A DNA stretch of 41,999 nt from an uncultured Bacteroidota bacterium (lineage in GTDB: Bacteria > Bacteroidota > Bacteroidia > Chitinophagales > Chitinophagaceae), in assembly GCA_903839875.1 (NCBI GenBank), contig CAIMDZ010000053.1, positions 1-41,999 on the forward strand, read 5' to 3'. Shown here in pieces: positions 14,767 through 23,615 of the stretch. The number at the start of each line of letters is the position of its first letter. Within the stretch, counting starts at the first letter, position 1. Under the pieces are notes generated by a model. That model was not told the DNA's origin. It did not search any database and was given only the letters and a program-made list of their open reading frames with translations. The translations under genes and the position numbers were made by a program.

Positions 14767-14939
14767 TGCATCACAGTAATTGTTTCTTGCTTTCCTTAAG
14801 AGAGAAATGTGAACTTTTGGCGGAAATCTTAATAAAAAATCCTGCCTTTCTTGCCTCAACCAAAATATTCAATTGTTTAAACCATAAAACGAAAAACACT
14901 TGAAAGCCGCTGCTGTTAAGTGTTTCAGTTTATCATCAG

Positions 14940-15011
14940 TGGCCTCGCCAGGAATCGAACCTGGATCTGGAGCTTCGGAAACTCTTATACTATCCATTGT
15001 ACTACGAGGCC
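14940..15011 (-). tRNA. tRNA-Arg (anticodon CCG)
   Basis: The reverse strand gives a 72-nt cloverleaf. The 7-bp acceptor is GGCCTCG/CGAGGCC with discriminator A. The D stem is GTAC/GTAT with loop AATGGATA. The anticodon loop is TTCCGAA, so the anticodon is CCG (Arg, codon CGG). The T arm is CCAGG-TTCGATT-CCTGG. CCA is not encoded. The anticodon stem has weak ends (an A-C mismatch and a T-G pair). The 5' half (nt 1-31 plus one flanking base) is duplicated 5.1 kb away at 20105-20136, so the gene is the attachment site of an integrated element whose DNA now forms its 5' flank and probably its promoter. Confidence 0.93.
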
Positions 15012-15012
15012 A
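14981..15012. repeat. Attachment-site repeat, left (within tRNA-Arg)
   Basis: The 32 bp are identical to 20105-20136. They cover tRNA nucleotides 1-31 and one base 5' of the gene. Identity stops at 14980 (A, against T in the right copy) and at 15013 (A, against T). Confidence 0.9.
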
Positions 15013-15052
15013 ACTTAATTAATTAGTAATCAATCAGTTGTAATTTTTAATC

Positions 15053-15105
15053 GTCCCCCACTTTTATAAATTTTACAGAAATGTCCCCCACTTGTACCCC
15101 ACATT
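15053..15105. promoter_or_regulatory. Putative integrase arm-type sites, left end
   Basis: Three related direct motifs: GTCCCCCACTTTT at 15053-15065, TGTCCCCCACTT at 15082-15093 and GTACCCCACATT at 15094-15105. The same motif recurs near the other end at 20001-20025. They lie 40-95 bases from the core repeat and directly before the integrase gene -7 box, so binding there could also repress that gene (inference). Confidence 0.55.
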
Positions 15106-15108
15106 TTG

Positions 15109-15116
15109 TATGTTTG
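15109..15116 (+). promoter_or_regulatory. -7 box of the integrase-like gene
   Basis: TATGTTTG fits the Bacteroidota -7 consensus TAnnTTTG and lies 24 bases before the ATG at 15141. It abuts the last arm-like motif. No clear -33 box is seen. Confidence 0.45.
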
Positions 15117-15140
15117 CTATAAATAAAATCGCTAAAATTC

Positions 15141-16079
15141 ATGAATAGCCAAACATACATTACCTGCTATAAAAAAAGTGCTGCGGATACTATCGGTTAT
15201 TTGTTTTTACAGAGCAAAGGTAGAAAAAATAGGAAGAAGAAAGCATTAGGCATCGCTATTAAATATAGCCACTTTAAAAACTACTGGAATGAAAAAGACC
15301 AGCGGTTTAGAAGTGGCATGGAACATTATAAGTTACTCAATGAGAAAATTGAAAAAGCATTTGAGGAAAACACAAAAGAAACCGGTGAAATAAAAGAAAC
15401 CATCAAAATCGTTAAGCAATCGTTCTTATCATACTGGGATAGGCAGATAGAGTTAATACCGAACCAGGGTTCAAAAGGAAAGCATGTCGTAGTAAAAAAG
15501 AAGTTAGAAACATACTTGCAATCAATAAAAAAACCCGATATAAACTTTGCTGACCTTACCCCAGAATTTATTGCGGATTTGCATTATCAATTCAAGACAG
15601 ATAGGGCATTAACGACCAGCAGCGTTAATAGTTACATGAAACTAATTAACAATGTCGTTAAAATTAGAACGAATATATTTACTCTAAACGAACTAAAAAA
15701 ACATATCAGGCGAAGTGTAAAGGATTATATAAAAAGACGAAACGAGCAAGAGTATTATGAAGGCAAAGAAAACGAAACAATTAACTACATAACATTTTTT
15801 GAAACTACAAAGGATTTTTTTAATTCGCAGCACACAAACAAAATTGTTGATACTAATTTCTACGCTGGCATTCATTTTCATTTATTTATTACTGGTGTTA
15901 ATGAGAATTACATTAATGAACTTAAATACCTTATAGAGCATCAAAAAAACAAAATAGGGTGTATATCAAAAATCAACAGCGTAAAAGCAGAGAAATTAGA
16001 TTTTGATTTTAAGACTTATCACGTTAAGCAAATGATGTTCGGATATAGCCCGCAATTGATTTTAAAGAACTACTTATAG
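15141..16079 (+). CDS. Tyrosine-integrase relative lacking catalytic residues
   Basis: The 312-residue product has an N-terminal arm-binding-like region (~1-85; SHFKNYWNEKDQRFRSG then LLNEKIEKAFEE, as in Bacteroidota integrases). A core-binding SAM-like domain (~105-200) follows, with INFADLTPEFIADLHYQF and SSVNSYMKLINNVVKI. After that, HFHLFITGVNENYINELKYL aligns in style with the FLFSxYxRGMNFxDxAxLK block of active integrases, but the catalytic Arg position is Thr. The protein ends about 60 residues later, without the H-x-x-R and Tyr motifs. Active relatives are about 400 residues long. It may be a decayed integrase or a DNA-binding accessory factor. No frame of the following 270 bases restores the missing half. 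Confidence 0.75.
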   Translation: MNSQTYITCYKKSAADTIGYLFLQSKGRKNRKKKALGIAIKYSHFKNYWNEKDQRFRSGMEHYKLLNEKIEKAFEENTKETGEIKETIKIVKQSFLSYWDRQIELIPNQGSKGKHVVVKKKLETYLQSIKKPDINFADLTPEFIADLHYQFKTDRALTTSSVNSYMKLINNVVKIRTNIFTLNELKKHIRRSVKDYIKRRNEQEYYEGKENETINYITFFETTKDFFNSQHTNKIVDTNFYAGIHFHLFITGVNENYINELKYLIEHQKNKIGCISKINSVKAEKLDFDFKTYHVKQMMFGYSPQLILKNYL

Positions 16080-16350
16080 CAGTTCAAAATTAAGCCCGTT
16101 TAACTTGTTGCTATACTTCGTGTCAGTTTGCCCGCAAATAAGCCCAAAGGGTGTCAGGAATAGCAAGAAATACGCTTGTCGGGAGTTCGTTCAGGTGATT
16201 ATCAATTATCGGAACTGAAAACAATTTACTTGCCGTGATATACCCTATAAACAGCGGTCATATTTATATGTGAAAAATACCGAAATAAATACTGATTTTC
16301 CTTTGCCGATTGAGAATTTATCCGTCCATTAGCCATCTAAAATAAATTGT

Positions 16351-16620
16351 ATGACTAAAAAGACAGAGGTAAAAAAGGTGGCTATTGTAGCACCAATGAA
16401 AATTGAAATGATAAACATTTTCAAAACCACATACGGCTATTGGAGGCACTGGGTTAAGTACATCCTGAAAGATGGTGGGGTTCTTAAATTTCGTTTCGTT
16501 AAAGACGCTGAAAGTTATAATGGCAAAATAGCAATTGCCAAACCAGAAGTAGAAAAAGCAAAGAAGGTCCTTGCTGACTACAAAACTAAAAACCCTGATA
16601 CGGTTGAAATGTGGCGGTAG
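16351..16620 (+). CDS. Small basic protein of unknown function
   Basis: The 89-residue, lysine-rich product (MTKKTEVKKVAIVAPMKIEM start) has a predicted strand-helix mix and a YGYWRHWVKYILKDGG segment. It has no signal peptide or membrane segment, and I recognise no family. It lies inside the integrated element, ends at a bidirectional terminator and converges with the GIY-YIG gene. The 270 bases before it contain no gene. Confidence 0.6.
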   Translation: MTKKTEVKKVAIVAPMKIEMINIFKTTYGYWRHWVKYILKDGGVLKFRFVKDAESYNGKIAIAKPEVEKAKKVLADYKTKNPDTVEMWR

Positions 16621-16642
16621 TTCACATGCTTCCCATTAAATG

Positions 16643-16673
16643 AAAAGCCATCTCTAAACGGAAATGGCTTTTT
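16643..16673. terminator. Bidirectional terminator
   Basis: AAAAGCCAT (16643-16651) pairs with ATGGCTTTT (16664-16672), flanked by A and T runs. It sits between the convergent 89-residue gene and the GIY-YIG gene. Confidence 0.75.
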
Positions 16674-16676
16674 ATT

Positions 16677-17546
16677 TTACAAGGAAGACGATTGAATAAA
16701 CTCTCTTAATTTTTTACTGATTTCTGTTACAGCAAGATTTTTTACTTCATAAATTCTTTTGCCATTTTCCATTATGTAAACATATGCAGTATTCACAAAC
16801 TCACGTTTTGAGGCTTCGGCGGTTTTACCTCTCCTTTTTAAAAAGTCTAACCAATTTGCTTCCATCTCATCACCTAAACCTATTTCACAACGACCGTATT
16901 TGCATTCAAAACTAATTACTCTCCCATCAGGCGATTTACCGCCCATTATTTTGGTTGCATTTAAGTCGCTAAAAATATCCGAATCCACAGATTGGATTAA
17001 TTGCATAATATGCATTTCCGTTTGCCGCTTTGTGTCTTTAATCTCATCTTCCCTTGTGGTTCGTGGGACAGAGTTAATTACATCTCTCAACTCTGGATAT
17101 TTACCAACGGCAAATTCTATACTTATTTTTCCTTTATCTATTTCATCAAGGGTCCGTAGTTTGGTTCGTGAAATTTTATTGTACTCATTTAGTCCACCAT
17201 CTAATAAATTCGTTAATGGCCCATAAGGTACTAACACACTATTTCCGTCAAGCACCACATACCCTTTTAAGTAACTCCTACCTATTCTATCAATCAGTAT
17301 TTCTTCTAAAAAGAAAGCAGCCTCTTCATTGACGTTGCGTATGTAGTAAATAATTTTCACTTCATTATTTGCGTCTAAAATTTCTTGTATTTTATCTATC
17401 TTACTATCGTTTCCTTGTCCGATTATTTTTTTCTCTTTTAAATGTTGCTCCGCCCTATTCCCTTTCCCTTTTCCGATATAAAAAACTTCTTTTGTTGTAG
17501 GATTGATTAAGCCATACACATAGTATTCATTTGAGTTAATATCCAT
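16677..17546 (-). CDS. GIY-YIG nuclease-domain protein (COG3680/LEM-3-like type)
   Basis: The 289-residue product starts with a GIY-YIG catalytic domain: YYVYGLINP (residues ~8-16), VFYIGKGKGNRAEQH (~21-35, with the conserved Arg and His) and, after ~55 residues, the acidic NEEAAFFLEEILIDRIG that supplies the metal-binding Glu. The GKGxGxR form resembles the stand-alone COG3680/LEM-3 group more than UvrC or homing enzymes (from memory). The C-terminal ~190 residues (basic KDTKRQTEMHIMQLI, then FECKYGRCEIGLGDEMEANW and a terminal helix) are of unknown fold and could select the target. It is expected to cut or nick nucleic acid. It is transcribed head-to-head with the 110-residue gene from overlapping promoters. 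A role in defence or element maintenance is inference. Confidence 0.8.
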   Translation of the reverse strand: MDINSNEYYVYGLINPTTKEVFYIGKGKGNRAEQHLKEKKIIGQGNDSKIDKIQEILDANNEVKIIYYIRNVNEEAAFFLEEILIDRIGRSYLKGYVVLDGNSVLVPYGPLTNLLDGGLNEYNKISRTKLRTLDEIDKGKISIEFAVGKYPELRDVINSVPRTTREDEIKDTKRQTEMHIMQLIQSVDSDIFSDLNATKIMGGKSPDGRVISFECKYGRCEIGLGDEMEANWLDFLKRRGKTAEASKREFVNTAYVYIMENGKRIYEVKNLAVTEISKKLREFIQSSSL

Positions 17547-17604
17547 TGCCAGTTTTTGAAGTGATTTATTTGGTTGTATACTTTACTTTTTTATTTTGAA
17601 TTAC

Positions 17605-17621
17605 CAAAGTTAATACCTTTG
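17605..17621. promoter_or_regulatory. Back-to-back promoters of the GIY-YIG gene and the 110-aa gene
   Basis: TAACTTTG on the minus strand (complement of 17605-17612) and TACCTTTG on the plus strand (17614-17621) both fit TAnnTTTG and are separated by one base, forming an imperfect palindrome. The plus box lies four bases before the ATG at 17626, so that transcript would be nearly leaderless. The minus box lies 58 bases from the GIY-YIG ATG. Two polymerases could not occupy both at once. Confidence 0.5.
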
Positions 17622-17625
17622 CATA

Positions 17626-17958
17626 ATGGAGCAGTATGAAATTAATGATTTTAACGAACACCTAATAAAAGACTTATCAGGAAAGAAAATTCAGTTGTAT
17701 CACTTCGTTGTTGAACCCTATCCCCCACACGAATTTATAGTAACTCTTGCCAAATGGCTTAAAGGGGTAACAATTATTCCGCACGATAAACTACCCATAA
17801 CGGCTATTCCTACTCATAATACCCCTGAGGGTAATCTTAACTGGTGTCCGGTTACAACTATTGAACCAGATAGAGACCTATACATTAAAATAGAAAAGCC
17901 AGATTATATTACGCAAACTAAACTCCCAATGAAAATTTTGTATAAGATTATTGAATAG
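17626..17958 (+). CDS. 110-aa protein of unknown function, partner of the GIY-YIG gene
   Basis: The 110-residue soluble protein (MEQYEINDFNEHLIKDLSGK start) is rich in Pro, Tyr and His in its middle (VVEPYPPHEF, IIPHDKLPITAIPTHN). It has no signal peptide, membrane segment or recognised motif. It is divergent from the nuclease gene with only 79 bases between start codons and a shared palindromic promoter, and has its own terminator. The layout would suit a regulator or immunity partner, but nothing in the protein itself proves this. Confidence 0.6.
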   Translation: MEQYEINDFNEHLIKDLSGKKIQLYHFVVEPYPPHEFIVTLAKWLKGVTIIPHDKLPITAIPTHNTPEGNLNWCPVTTIEPDRDLYIKIEKPDYITQTKLPMKILYKIIE

Positions 17959-18001
17959 CAAGTTTTTTTTAGTTTTTTCAGTTTCTTATATTAACTGAAT
18001 T

Positions 18002-18033
18002 AAAGAACCATAGCATTTTGCCATGGTTCTTTT
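18002..18033. terminator. Bidirectional terminator
   Basis: AAAGAACCAT (18002-18011) pairs with ATGGTTCTTT (18023-18032), with a T run after it and A residues before. It sits between the 110-aa gene and the convergent recombinase gene. Confidence 0.8.
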
Positions 18034-18062
18034 CATTTCTTTAACAATCAATTCAATTTCTT

Positions 18063-18677
18063 TTAGTTCATTTGAGGATTTAACCCGTACTTCTTAATCT
18101 TTGTAATTGTATTGATATGTATGCCTGTTATTTTTGAAATTTCCACAGCCTTATATCCTTTCTTTAAATAATCTAATGCTTTCCTGTTTTTTTCTTTTGA
18201 TAAGAAAGTCAATATATCCTCTTTGCTCCCTTCCTGCCTACCCTTATAAACACCTTTCAATTTTGCAATTTTAATCCCTTCAATCTGGCGCTCTTTTGAT
18301 TGTGTCCGCTCCATTTCGCTTACAATACCTAAAATGCTAATCATCATTTTAGAAATCGGATTTTCTTTTCCGTCAGGGCCCAGCGTGGTAAGTCCTTGTG
18401 AAACGAAATTTATTGAAATCTGCTTTTCATTAAAGAAATGAATAGTATTTATTATATCACGCAGATTGCGCCCCAACCTGTCTATCTGCCAAACTGATAA
18501 TGAAGTCAATATACCTTCATTAACATACTTCAAAATCTCTTTGCCACCCGTTCTATCAAAAAATGGAATAGCCCCAGAGCATTTATCTTCAATAACCAAA
18601 TCGTATTCTTTTTCGGAAACACGTTGCCTATCAGTTTTTTGGTCTATTGACGAACAGCGAACATACAACACTTTCAT
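18063..18677 (-). CDS. Serine recombinase (resolvase/invertase family)
   Basis: The 204-residue product has the small serine recombinase layout. The N-terminal catalytic domain has YVRCSSIDQ (nucleophile Ser9 or Ser10), WQIDRLGRNLRDII (conserved DRLGRN arginines), the helix-E region SEMERTQSKERQIEGIKIAK, and GVYKGR at the hinge. A C-terminal helix-turn-helix (GYKAVEISKITGIHINTITKIKK) binds DNA. Members cut and rejoin DNA at short sites through a 5' phosphoserine link. Here it could resolve or invert element DNA or replace the inactive tyrosine integrase. The Val/Cys change in the RVS motif (RCS) does not touch known catalytic residues. Confidence 0.9.
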   Translation of the reverse strand: MKVLYVRCSSIDQKTDRQRVSEKEYDLVIEDKCSGAIPFFDRTGGKEILKYVNEGILTSLSVWQIDRLGRNLRDIINTIHFFNEKQISINFVSQGLTTLGPDGKENPISKMMISILGIVSEMERTQSKERQIEGIKIAKLKGVYKGRQEGSKEDILTFLSKEKNRKALDYLKKGYKAVEISKITGIHINTITKIKKYGLNPQMN

Positions 18678-18756
18678 AATTCACAATTTTAAGTTAGTTG
18701 CTAATATACCCTAAAAATATGAATAAAGAACCGCTCCACCAAGGAAAAACAGAAAA

Positions 18757-18789
18757 ATAGCCGAAATTATTTTTCACAATTTCGGCTAT
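18757..18789 (-). terminator. Terminator of the 100-aa gene
   Basis: ATAGCCGAAATT (18757-18768) and AATTTCGGCTAT (18778-18789) form a perfect 12-bp stem. On the minus strand the stem is followed directly by a T run. It lies 60 bases past the stop of the gene at 18851-19153. Confidence 0.8.
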
Positions 18790-18850
18790 ACTCCTAAAAC
18801 ATGAATTGGTAAGTGATTTAAAGTTGAGAGAGAAATAAAATTTAGGTAAT

Positions 18851-19153
18851 TTAGAAAGTCATTGGTTCATCAGTCCAATAATTACCTTCCTTAATAATAT
18901 CCCTGTATTGTTTATGCATTGGGCCAAAGACAATTCTATCTGCAATCGCAAATCGCTCCGAGTTATTTGAGATTAACGATAGGGCAATGTCTTCAAATTT
19001 TTCAGCATTACTTGTAACATATCGGATAGACATCATTTCTCTATCATCCATATTAAACACATCAACTGGTTCGCCACATACAGGGTATTTTATTATTAAT
19101 GTTCCAACTGGCATAGCGGTTAATTGTCCGTTTGTTCTTATTTTGTGCCACAT
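18851..19153 (-). CDS. Small protein of unknown function
   Basis: The 100-residue soluble protein opens MWHKIRTNGQLTAMPVGTLI and contains a single Cys-containing YPVCGEPVDVFNMDD segment. The Pro/Gly-spaced strands in the first 45 residues suggest a small beta barrel; the last third is helical. No family is recognised. It is carried in the integrated element, upstream of the serine recombinase on the same strand but separated from it by a strong terminator, so it is a separate transcription unit. Confidence 0.6.
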   Translation of the reverse strand: MWHKIRTNGQLTAMPVGTLIIKYPVCGEPVDVFNMDDREMMSIRYVTSNAEKFEDIALSLISNNSERFAIADRIVFGPMHKQYRDIIKEGNYWTDEPMTF

Positions 19154-19272
19154 ACTATTATTTTTATGTAAATGTAATTAACTTGTGTAAATGAAAGTAG
19201 TTGCTTAAAGGATAATTTGGTTTTGAACTCTAAAACATAAATAGATAGGCGCAAGTATAAATTAATAGCAAT

Positions 19273-19863
19273 ATGTGGACTTGTATTATTATCGGACTTC
19301 TCGTTTTAGTAGTTATTGGTTTTTTTCAAGCAGCGAAGAAAACAAGCAAATCAAAGCATGAGAAAGAAAAAGAACTTTCAGACAAATATAATCTTGACGA
19401 GTCCAACGAACTATTTTCTGCAAAGTATTTAGGAGGGCACCCCTCAATAAATAATAATGGGGACTTACGAGTATTTCATAAGAACAATCAACTAGTATTG
19501 GTTTCTTTTTTTACAGAGCTAGTTTCAGATGATAAAGTAGGTCAATATGACAAGTATGATTTTTATATTTGTGGCAGTATTGATTTTGCTTCAATTAAGG
19601 AAGTGACCTTGGAAGACCAGTCAACAATTGAAAATAGAATAACAGTCGGTCGGATGTTGTTAGTTGGGCCATTGGCGTTTGCATGGAAGAAAAAAGAAAA
19701 AATAGAGAGTGCATATCTCATCTTGGATTGGAACGATGGGACTTTTAATCACAAGACACTTTTTGAATTTACAGGGAGTAGTTCTATGCAGAAGGCAAAT
19801 ACAGCACGGAATAAATTAATTAATACCGTTAAGAAATCTGAAATAATACGAGATACTCAATAA
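19273..19863 (+). CDS. Membrane-anchored protein, possible bacterial PH-like domain
   Basis: The 196-residue product starts with one membrane segment (CIIIGLLVLVVIGFF, residues 4-18). A Lys/Glu-rich linker and a soluble ~150-residue domain follow. The part ISFASIKEV-like / RITVGRMLLVGPLAFAWKKK / YLILDWNDG has the strand pattern of bacterial PH-like domains, ending in a C-terminal helix (residues ~168-190). The PH-like call is inference from pattern, not a confirmed match. The topology predicts a short periplasmic N-terminus with the domain in the cytoplasm. Last gene of the element; its role is unknown. Confidence 0.6.
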   Translation: MWTCIIIGLLVLVVIGFFQAAKKTSKSKHEKEKELSDKYNLDESNELFSAKYLGGHPSINNNGDLRVFHKNNQLVLVSFFTELVSDDKVGQYDKYDFYICGSIDFASIKEVTLEDQSTIENRITVGRMLLVGPLAFAWKKKEKIESAYLILDWNDGTFNHKTLFEFTGSSSMQKANTARNKLINTVKKSEIIRDTQ

Positions 19864-20000
19864 TTAACCATGGTGGAATTATTATAGGCTTCTACTTAAA
19901 CATTTATTTAGCCTACGATTATTTTATTTTATGGTTGTTTTTCGGTAACTTTGAATAAGCAGAAAAAAGACATAAACAGAATAAGTTTATTAGTCTAAAA

Positions 20001-20025
20001 TGTCCCCCACTTATCCCCCACTTTT
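20001..20025. promoter_or_regulatory. Putative integrase arm-type sites, right end
   Basis: TGTCCCCCACTT at 20001-20012 and ATCCCCCACTTTT at 20013-20025 are direct repeats of the motif near the left end, about 80-105 bases inside the right attachment repeat. Same strand orientation as the left-end set. Confidence 0.55.
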
Positions 20026-20104
20026 ACATATAGTGTAGTTCACGGGATAATAAAAAATTGAAAATCAATCACTTGGAGATGTACGTCTATGTAGCGTCTT
20101 AGTT

Positions 20105-20136
20105 ACTCTTATACTATCCATTGTACTACGAGGCCA
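20105..20136. repeat. Attachment-site repeat, right (tRNA-Arg 5' half copy)
   Basis: The 32 bp are identical to 14981-15012. No tRNA 3' half follows, so this is the orphaned 5' half of the original tRNA gene (or the copy brought by the element, depending on the crossover). Confidence 0.9.
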
Positions 20137-20164
20137 TCAATGGCTGCAAAGTTAATGTTTAATT

Positions 20165-20229
20165 GGAAACTCTTAAAACTATCCCCGTCCGAACGGTGTC
20201 CAACCGGGCGGGCATTGTACAACGAGGCC
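20165..20229 (-). pseudogene. Second, degenerate tRNA-Arg 5' half with a 28-bp insert
   Basis: The complement reads GGCCTCG (20229-20223), TTGTACAATG, then a 28-bp insert (20185-20212), then GGATAGT, a T-rich stretch and AAGAGTTTCC (to 20165). Without the insert it matches tRNA-Arg nucleotides 1 to about 35, ending inside the anticodon loop, with a few substitutions and one extra T. The insert sits in the D loop. It has no 3' half and cannot make a tRNA. It suggests an earlier integration at the same target. Confidence 0.7.
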
Positions 20230-20420
20230 GTTATATTGAAGATATGCAAAAGTAATTACTTAACTTCACTTCACTTCGATAGCATCAGTTAATGATTTTC
20301 CTGCCAGATGTGCAAAAAATAGTTATAGACCCCATGCCGGAGAACCGGAGATTGAAATAATTTTTCGCCTTTACTAACTTCGTTTTCCTTTTTTACAATA
20401 AAAAACGCATATTGTAGCGT

Positions 20421-22355: not shown

Positions 22356-22391
22356 CTGGTATAGCTGTGTGCAATGATCTATTTGCCGGGT

Positions 22392-22696
22392 TTATTCTTC
22401 CTTTCTGAATTTTTCCTTTGGATTTCTGCTGGTATGGAATATGGCAGCAATGTGGATAAGCTTTCTGCGTGGAAAAAATTCGTACACAATAACATACGGA
22501 AATTTTTCAACGCCGGCTTGTCTGTATGTGCCACGTAACCTGCTGTAGTATCCCGGATTTTCACAGATATCTGCAATCTGTCTGTCAATAACATCCAGAA
22601 ACTTTTCGCCAAGGCCGTCACGTTATTTTCATACCATTCATACCCATTGGCATACTCGTCAATTGCCTGTGAATGTAACTTGTACGGGAAAGCCAT
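22392..22696 (-). pseudogene. ParE/RelE-type toxin gene with a one-base frameshift
   Basis: The frame from the ATG at 22696 reads MAFPYKLHSQAIDEYANGY and on to NNVT, then leaves the family pattern. Restoring one base near 22613-22619 gives a continuous 101-residue product with a full ParE/RelE signature: LGEKFLDVIDRQIADI, then NPGYYSRLRGTYRQAGVEKF, PYVIVYEFFPRRKLIHIAAI and FHTSRNP, ending at the TAA at 22392-22394. As written, the gene codes a 105-residue protein without these motifs (stop at 22379). The ATG overlaps the antitoxin stop (TAATG). It is either inactive or a sequencing error. Confidence 0.8.
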
Positions 22697-22929
22697 TATT
22701 GCTTACTTTTTTCTTTGAATCTTTCCCTCGCTATTTTCCTGGCTTCCTCAAGCGTGTACATTTTCGCACTGCCATCAAGGAATGATTTGGTTCTGCGTTC
22801 CAATTCCTTGTAAGTCTCATCATCAATCACACACGCTACTGGTTCAATTTTATTTTCAACGAAAGTATATACGGCCTTTACGTCCTTTTCATCAGCCGTC
22901 TGTAGGTATTCAGTTATTTTCTTTCTCAT
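22696..22929 (-). CDS. Antitoxin of a ParE/RelE-type module
   Basis: The 77-residue acidic product (MRKKITEYLQTADEKDVKAV start) has helices and the C-terminal LDGSAKMYTLEEARKIARERF. This is the form of the short addiction-module antitoxins that pair with ParE/RelE toxins in Bacteroidota. An ATG 15 bp upstream is possible; the later one is chosen because KKITEYLQ is the usual beginning. It overlaps the toxin ATG by one base, so the two are translationally coupled. Because the toxin is frameshifted, the antitoxin may now be free of selection or may protect against a related toxin elsewhere. Confidence 0.8.
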   Translation of the reverse strand: MRKKITEYLQTADEKDVKAVYTFVENKIEPVACVIDDETYKELERRTKSFLDGSAKMYTLEEARKIARERFKEKSKQ

Positions 22930-22960
22930 TGCAATCACCGTCATAACTACACTGTTTTTA

Positions 22961-22994: not shown

Positions 22995-23615
22995 TCATTT
23001 ATACTTTTCAATCTCTATCCGCTCCTTGCAAAAGAAGTACTCCCGCTCATCATTTGATGCTACTATTACCAGTCTGTCCTTGCTATATTCTTCTATCCAG
23101 TTGCGGTATTGTTCTACACCTTGCTGGTCAAGGTTGGTGCAGGGTTCATCAAGCAGCAAAACCGGCGTATCAGAGAAAATAGCCTGTGCCAGCTTCACCC
23201 GTTGCTTCATCCCTGATGAGTAATCACCAATAGGTTTTTCTGCCGCGTCTTTTAACCGGCACAGTTCAATTATTTTGTCAACTGACAGGCCGGGTAGCGG
23301 ATGTTTAAATGAAAAATGAAAATCAAAAAATTCCCTCAGGGTCAGTTCTTCCACCAATTCCATACCGGGGGCGCTAAAACTGATGTTGCTGAATACATCA
23401 GCAGCTATTATCTGGGTGCCATCCTTATTATGAAAATTGATTTTCCCTTGCGAAGGCGCCTGCATACCGGCAAGTATTCTCAGTAAGGTTGATTTGCCAC
23501 TGCCGTTTAGCCCCAGCAATGCATAGGCTCCCGGCGAGGAAAAAGAATAATTAATATCCTTAAATATCCAGTACCGCTGAAAACGCTTGCTGATATGTTC
23601 AAGGGATATGTTCAT
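22995..23615 (-). CDS. ABC transporter ATP-binding protein (short, single domain)
   Basis: The 206-residue product has Walker A GLNGSGKST (~34-42), the signature YSSGMKQRVKLAQAIF, Walker B VLLLDEP and a D-loop Thr-Asn-Leu-Asp. The Q-loop region lies around FSAPGMELVEELT, and the H-loop position is Ser-Asn-Asp-Glu (SNDERE) without the usual His. The length is like CcmA-type single ATPases. No permease is adjacent. It lies downstream of lpxA on the same strand, an arrangement common in Bacteroidota, so it may serve an envelope lipid or small transporter (inference). The missing switch His suggests altered hydrolysis or a need for a partner subunit. Confidence 0.9.
   Translation of the reverse strand: MNISLEHISKRFQRYWIFKDINYSFSSPGAYALLGLNGSGKSTLLRILAGMQAPSQGKINFHNKDGTQIIAADVFSNISFSAPGMELVEELTLREFFDFHFSFKHPLPGLSVDKIIELCRLKDAAEKPIGDYSSGMKQRVKLAQAIFSDTPVLLLDEPCTNLDQQGVEQYRNWIEEYSKDRLVIVASNDEREYFFCKERIEIEKYK

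Follow-up and report, generated by a model that had tools for sequence, protein, structure and literature searches.

The window analysed here is a stretch of 41,999 nucleotides (nt) of contig CAIMDZ010000053.1, from the genome (G000) of an uncultured Bacteroidota bacterium of the Chitinophagaceae (GCA_903839875.1). The only tRNA gene that ARAGORN detects in it, tRNA-Arg(CCG), borders a candidate integrative element, and a search of the genome with this tRNA found a single full copy. A repeat search identified a 32-bp direct repeat, 100% identical between its two copies, which consists of nt 1–31 of the tRNA plus one flanking base; one copy lies within the intact tRNA gene and the other has no 3' half. 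The original prediction, made from the sequence alone, of a perfect 32-bp repeat with its second copy about 5.1 kb from the tRNA was borne out by both programs. When up to 3 mismatches were allowed, the repeat was found at these two places in the 41,999 bases and in 0 of 100 shuffles. The unit at 15013–20136 is 5,124 bp long, with 5,092 bases between the two repeats. The features at its ends are as follows.

14939 to 15011, minus strand: tRNA-Arg(CCG), intact, at the left junction of the element (ARAGORN; Rfam tRNA, 61.4 bits)
14981 to 15012, minus strand: left copy of the repeat, putative attL core (repeat search, shuffles)
15028 to 15036, plus strand: AATCAATCA motif near the left core
15054 to 15063, plus strand: TCCCCCACTT, left copy 1, putative arm-type site (motif count against shuffles)
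15084 to 15093, plus strand: TCCCCCACTT, left copy 2, putative arm-type site (motif count against shuffles)
15109 to 15116, plus strand: TATGTTTG, probable -7 box of the integrase gene, directed away from the tRNA
15141 to 16079, plus strand: broken integrase gene, with an N-terminal and a SAM-like part and no catalytic domain (Pfam, similarity)
20003 to 20012, plus strand: TCCCCCACTT, right copy 1, putative arm-type site (motif count against shuffles)
20014 to 20023, plus strand: TCCCCCACTT, right copy 2, putative arm-type site (motif count against shuffles)
20063 to 20071, plus strand: AATCAATCA motif near the right core
20105 to 20136, minus strand: right copy of the repeat, the displaced 5' half of tRNA-Arg(CCG), putative attR core (repeat search, shuffles, half-copy comparison)
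20146 to 20154, minus strand: TAACTTTGC, presumably the usual -7 box, now beside the displaced half

The TCCCCCACTT motif occurs four times in the window (15054, 15084, 20003 and 20014), only near the ends of the element, and 0 of 100 shuffles reached four copies. The GC fraction is 0.32–0.36 in the five 1-kb bins from 15001 to 20000 and 0.33–0.52 in the 36 remaining bins. The integrase gene starts 129 bp from the 5' end of the tRNA and reads away from it. In this open reading frame (ORF), Pfam detects the SAM-like domain alone, and a search of NCBIfam gave no match. Its N-terminal ~174 amino acids (aa) resemble a 544-aa ORF that carries both SAM_5 and Phage_integrase domains and lies on another contig of the same genome, C149 (54% identity over 177 aa), and the part from aa 183 onward resembles a different protein, of 171 aa, on contig C49 (72% identity over 128 aa). 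Since the two parts match these two proteins, the ORF appears to be the product of an in-frame deletion that fused two genes and removed the catalytic part of the integrase. As this part is absent, the window copy should be unable to excise by itself.

A related element with an intact integrase gene lies on C149. In the search of the genome with the tRNA, three places were found: tRNA-Arg(CCG), its half copy, and an 83% match that is tRNA-Arg(CCT) on C149. There, a 16.5-kb element extends from a half copy (97% identity over nt 1–31) to tRNA-Arg(CCT), which its integrase gene adjoins. Genomes of relatives are given here by G numbers and the stretches compared by L numbers; the named relatives are lake-type metagenome bins of uncultured Bacteroidetes or Bacteroidales. 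Searched against 35 same-genus genomes, the C149 integrase gave 10 matches in 6 genomes at E ≤ 1e-10, and the five strongest (E ≤ 1e-49) all stand at tRNA-Arg: at the gene (two in G000), at a displaced half (G008 and G029) or at a broken gene (G001). At E ≤ 1e-25, relatives of the integrase were found in one of 396 genomes of the order, G000 itself, and the C149 integrase had no match in viral contigs or phage records. At the opposite end of the elements, all nine right-end half copies that were compared lose the match after nt 31. In G008 a left end stands at tRNA-Arg(CCG), with a right end on a separate contig, and G025 has a right end only (84.7% identical to that of the window element). 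In G008 and G029, the displaced half next to the integrase is itself preceded by another right end, the two forming a tandem pair.

As the original prediction had proposed, loci of relatives were compared for empty sites. In the window, 7,982 bp separate the tRNA from an upstream ATPase gene (22995–23615; ABC-transporter-type, by eye). A homologue was found in 19 of 40 stretches searched, and in 14 of these, all from the same genus, it lies 29–108 bp from the tRNA. The exact empty site was not found among the relatives examined; the nearest is G017, in which a 79.6% homologue of 20165–20262 begins 112 bp upstream of the tRNA, the sole fetched locus with such DNA close to the tRNA. Insertion on the 5' side of the tRNA, also predicted, is supported by these 14 loci and by the position of the -7 box, which has moved with the displaced half. 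As a separate observation, a toxin-antitoxin-like pair (by eye) adjoins the ATPase gene at 22379–22960, and similar pairs lie between the tRNA and the ATPase gene in G001 and G025; PADLOC gave no match for 22379–22696.

Because nt 1–31 are identical in the two copies, arm-type repeats lie at both ends, an integrase gene starts close to the tRNA, relatives are free of the element and C149 carries a related one, we consider it very probable that these 5,124 bp are an integrative element damaged by deletion, belonging to a tyrosine-integrase family whose recombination target is the 5' half of tRNA-Arg genes. The locus agrees with the definition of a genomic island used by Islander in that an intact tRNA gene and a cognate fragment share one orientation, with the 5' fragment upstream, and in size (5,124 bp within 2–200 kb); of the internal tyrosine integrase gene, the window retains the N-terminal and SAM-like part only, and in the C149 relative all the domains are present. 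The crossover would have taken place within about nt 21–31 of the tRNA, the element supplying the 5' half and the upstream flank, and the host's original 5' half and -7 box would have been carried to the far end. When the window flanks were joined in silico, an intact tRNA-Arg(CCG) was restored beside its own -7 box, and precise excision should therefore cost nothing. This weakens the suggestion that the element is stabilised by host dependence; loss of the catalytic part of the integrase is a simpler cause of fixation of the window copy.

We then considered the promoter of the tRNA. In Flavobacterium psychrophilum, the main sigma factor uses TAnnTTTG as its -7 box (PMC9723704). Of 31 listed rows for tRNA-Arg(CCG), L006 was left out (9 nt visible) and 30 were scored, the box being sought within 60 nt of the tRNA. 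It was present in 25 rows, from 24 same-genus genomes and G035 (same family, other genus), and missing in five, G036 (another genus), G000, G005, G008 and G032. The tRNA-Arg(CCG) genes of G000 and G008 abut the left end of an element, and in G005 the 46 visible nt upstream are identical to the left end of the window element at 34 positions. G032 was rejected as an element remnant, as no integrase remnant was confirmed (E 0.27 and 0.90). Among same-genus sites, the box was thus present in 24 of the 25 not shown to abut an element versus none of the three that are element-abutted. Fisher p values were 4.2e-5 as first scored (25/25 versus 0/4), 3.4e-4 for 24/24 versus 0/3, 0.003 against the two firm sites alone, and 0.0012 (4/3276, by hand) with G032 taken as a plain site lacking the box (24/25 versus 0/3); all are descriptive because the groups were defined after the sequences had been seen. 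For tRNA-Arg(CCT), the box was present in 20 of 26 other rows versus 0 of 1 element-abutted, so that the association holds less strictly there. These comparisons support the view that the usual promoter motif has been displaced by about 5 kb from the tRNA by the element.

The left end of the window element contains no TAnnTTTG directed at the tRNA, and the sequence there that comes closest to the box scores far lower than at all other sites. Of the original prediction that the element end provides the upstream flank, and hence the promoter, the displacement of the usual -7 box is supported, and no promoter was recognised in its place. On balance, the tRNA is probably transcribed from a non-consensus promoter within element DNA. 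The alternative is read-through from the side of the minus-strand GIY-YIG gene (16677–17546) or from elsewhere; the absence of a recognisable box and the shared strand of this gene and the tRNA favour it, but the transcript would have to cross the intervening ~1.7 kb, antisense to the integrase ORF, and we give read-through a lesser, though real, chance. In G025 (L034), which carries an element remnant, the intact tRNA and the displaced half have the same ~60 bases upstream, as would be expected of a tRNA that has recovered its original promoter.

Several observations weigh against integration by such an element, or against its effect on the promoter. The five weaker integrase matches share 23–29% identity, and the sites examined for an association with tRNA-Arg are those of the five strongest. 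The element as a whole has no close relative: there was no match among plasmids, one 38-bp match among phages, and, besides the element itself, only pieces of its DNA in eight genomes of the genus, its own included. The promoter contrast draws on two firm element-abutted sites (G000 and G008) together with G005, and G032 is a fourth site devoid of the box, yet one with no integrase remnant. Finally, the exact G000 empty site is absent from all relatives examined, the ATPase gene is farther from the tRNA in 5 of the 19 stretches (206 bp in G017, 665 in G001, 1,207 in G013, 2,093 in G025 and 3,632 in G029), and in the window 2,858 bp of non-element DNA separate the right repeat from this gene, a stretch that holds a hairpin-bearing tRNA fragment, a gene with TPR repeats and the toxin-antitoxin-like pair (by eye).

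In some relatives the element end is accompanied by a putative spare tRNA. A diverged tRNA-Arg(CCT) adjoins a right end in G001, G027, G008 and G029; the window holds no second tRNA. At the left end in G001 (C310), ARAGORN recognises no tRNA in the sequence as it stands and one once the flanks are joined; this broken junction tRNA matches the host half over ~11 nt. The TAnnTTTG box before the spare tRNA and a broken host copy were both seen in G001 only. A second tRNA-Arg(CCT) 3' half was sought in G008, G029 and G027 and none was found, with no match at all in G027. One might tentatively envisage that a Bacteroidota lineage of such elements separates tRNA-Arg genes from their original promoters and makes up for it in two ways: the window and C149 elements would restore the 5' half and have the tRNA transcribed from the element end, and those of G001, and perhaps of G027, G008 and G029, would carry a complete spare tRNA-Arg(CCT) at the far end while the host copy decays. 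The second way would be the mirror image of tRNA-dependent lysogeny, in elements other than known phages; we give this reading limited credence. Against the reading of a spare tRNA, G001 has 6% contamination and its two element ends are on two contigs, its broken tRNA may have decayed later, and its spare is the sole one with the box.

The remaining genes of the element are listed below.

16351 to 16620, plus strand: 89-aa protein with relatives in C149, C49 and C178 stretches of G000 (similarity)
16677 to 17546, minus strand: GIY-YIG nuclease-like protein, 289 aa, its first ~90 aa matching PADLOC PD-T4-3 (Pfam, PADLOC)
17626 to 17958, plus strand: 110-aa protein, no family match (Pfam, NCBIfam, PADLOC)
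18063 to 18677, minus strand: serine resolvase/invertase, 204 aa, with a similar gene on contig C175 (Pfam, similarity)
18851 to 19153, minus strand: 100-aa protein, no family match (Pfam, NCBIfam, PADLOC)
19273 to 19863, plus strand: 196-aa protein with a hydrophobic N-terminus; family matches weak, all below cut-off (Pfam, NCBIfam)

Among the seven element proteins, Pfam identified no phage structural gene, by which a prophage would be recognised, and no relaxase or conjugation gene, by which an integrative and conjugative or an integrative and mobilizable element would be. The 171-aa protein on C49 that resembles the second part of the integrase ORF stands near a relative of the 16351–16620 gene. 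A composite history, in which the serine resolvase or the GIY-YIG gene was added later to an old element remnant, is suggested by the C175 stretch similar to the resolvase (72% over 629 bp) and by the fusion in the integrase ORF. We regard it as somewhat unlikely, and it would alter the history of the cargo only, leaving integration unaffected.

Further sequences related to tRNA-Arg were noticed in the window and in relatives. In the window, a third, degenerate copy of the 5' half (20165–20229) contains a 29-nt GC-rich hairpin at 20184–20212. Non-functional tRNA-Arg copies bearing such hairpins (CCCGCCCG...CGGACGGG type) in the D-loop or beside the anticodon stem were observed at this position and in L036 (G017), L142 (G002), L110 (G011; two hairpins) and L139 (G032). 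The hairpin was rejected as part of the window element, as it is an interspersed sequence (33 matches to one strict pattern in 11 of 35 same-genus genomes) found mostly away from tRNAs. In L036, L142, L139 and L110, GIY-YIG-like genes of ~80–90 aa (by eye) lie between the intact tRNA-Arg and a partial copy, and some start or stop within tRNA sequence. Large serine recombinase genes (L138 17288–18895; L109; L120; L048 1003–2622; L036 8946–10580, oriented) extend in antisense orientation into tRNA-Arg genes or copies at their 3' half, opposite to the side on which the 5' elements lie; the Islander paper describes tyrosine integrases as the only kind known to target tRNA genes (PMC4383910). In G020 (L144), a 34-nt 5' half of tRNA-Arg(CCT) is followed, after 20 bp, by a diverged tRNA-Arg(CCT), and the usual promoter would therefore transcribe both.

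Partial tRNA copies around small cassettes, present in G017, G002, G019, G015, G011 and G032 and represented in the window by the copy at 20165–20229, raise the question of whether a tandem duplication of the tRNA region, like those behind these arrays, and not an integrase, produced the displaced half. The cassette copies break elsewhere, whereas the nine half copies with an element right end share their breakpoint, and in the window the same arm-type repeat stands at both ends with an integrase gene inside; such an origin is highly improbable. An island of the 3' type was rejected, as the repeat comprises nt 1–31 and lies upstream of the tRNA. Integration into the 5' half is the preferred explanation.

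How does this element compare with known systems? Of 3,919 islands, Islander lists 3,760 with a 3' fragment and 159 with a 5' fragment (PMC4383910), and 5' recombination is described, with reference to Zhao and Williams 2002, as considerably rarer (PMC6563490). The insertion mode is therefore already known, since these sources count 5'-fragment islands and call such recombination less frequent. A Bacteroidota family of tRNA-Arg 5'-half elements was not found described among the literature matches listed, which is not proof of absence. As in the 5'-fragment islands of Islander, the tRNA gene and the displaced fragment are co-oriented with the island between them, and the integrase is of the tyrosine family (PMC4383910); unlike these, the elements form a Bacteroidota family that uses two tRNA-Arg isoacceptors with one footprint, the window copy has no catalytic domain, and the displacement of the -7 box was compared with relatives. 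CalSub-E1, in a thaumarchaeal tRNA-Ser, similarly recombines with the 5'-distal part of the gene; it is archaeal, uses another tRNA, and is likened here by description, not by sequence (PMC6563490). In the rare case of integration into the 5' half, the DNA that flanks the promoter side of the tRNA belongs to the element and not to the host, and the presence of the same tRNA with and without the element in one genus provides a natural comparison for the cost and repair of promoter loss. Lastly, tRNA-dependent lysogeny is known in mycobacteriophages (PMC10865867), and the tRNA-Arg(CCT) near the element end of relatives and the broken junction tRNA of G001 resemble it. The phages differ in using the 3' half of the tRNA, whereas here the 5' half is used, the only phage match found is the one of 38 bp, and the window has no spare tRNA; its junction tRNA is intact (ARAGORN, Rfam), whereas tRNA-dependent integration leaves no functional tRNA at the junction. 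If the host tRNA is indeed replaced by that of the element in these relatives, the tRNA dependence of mobile elements would extend beyond phages.

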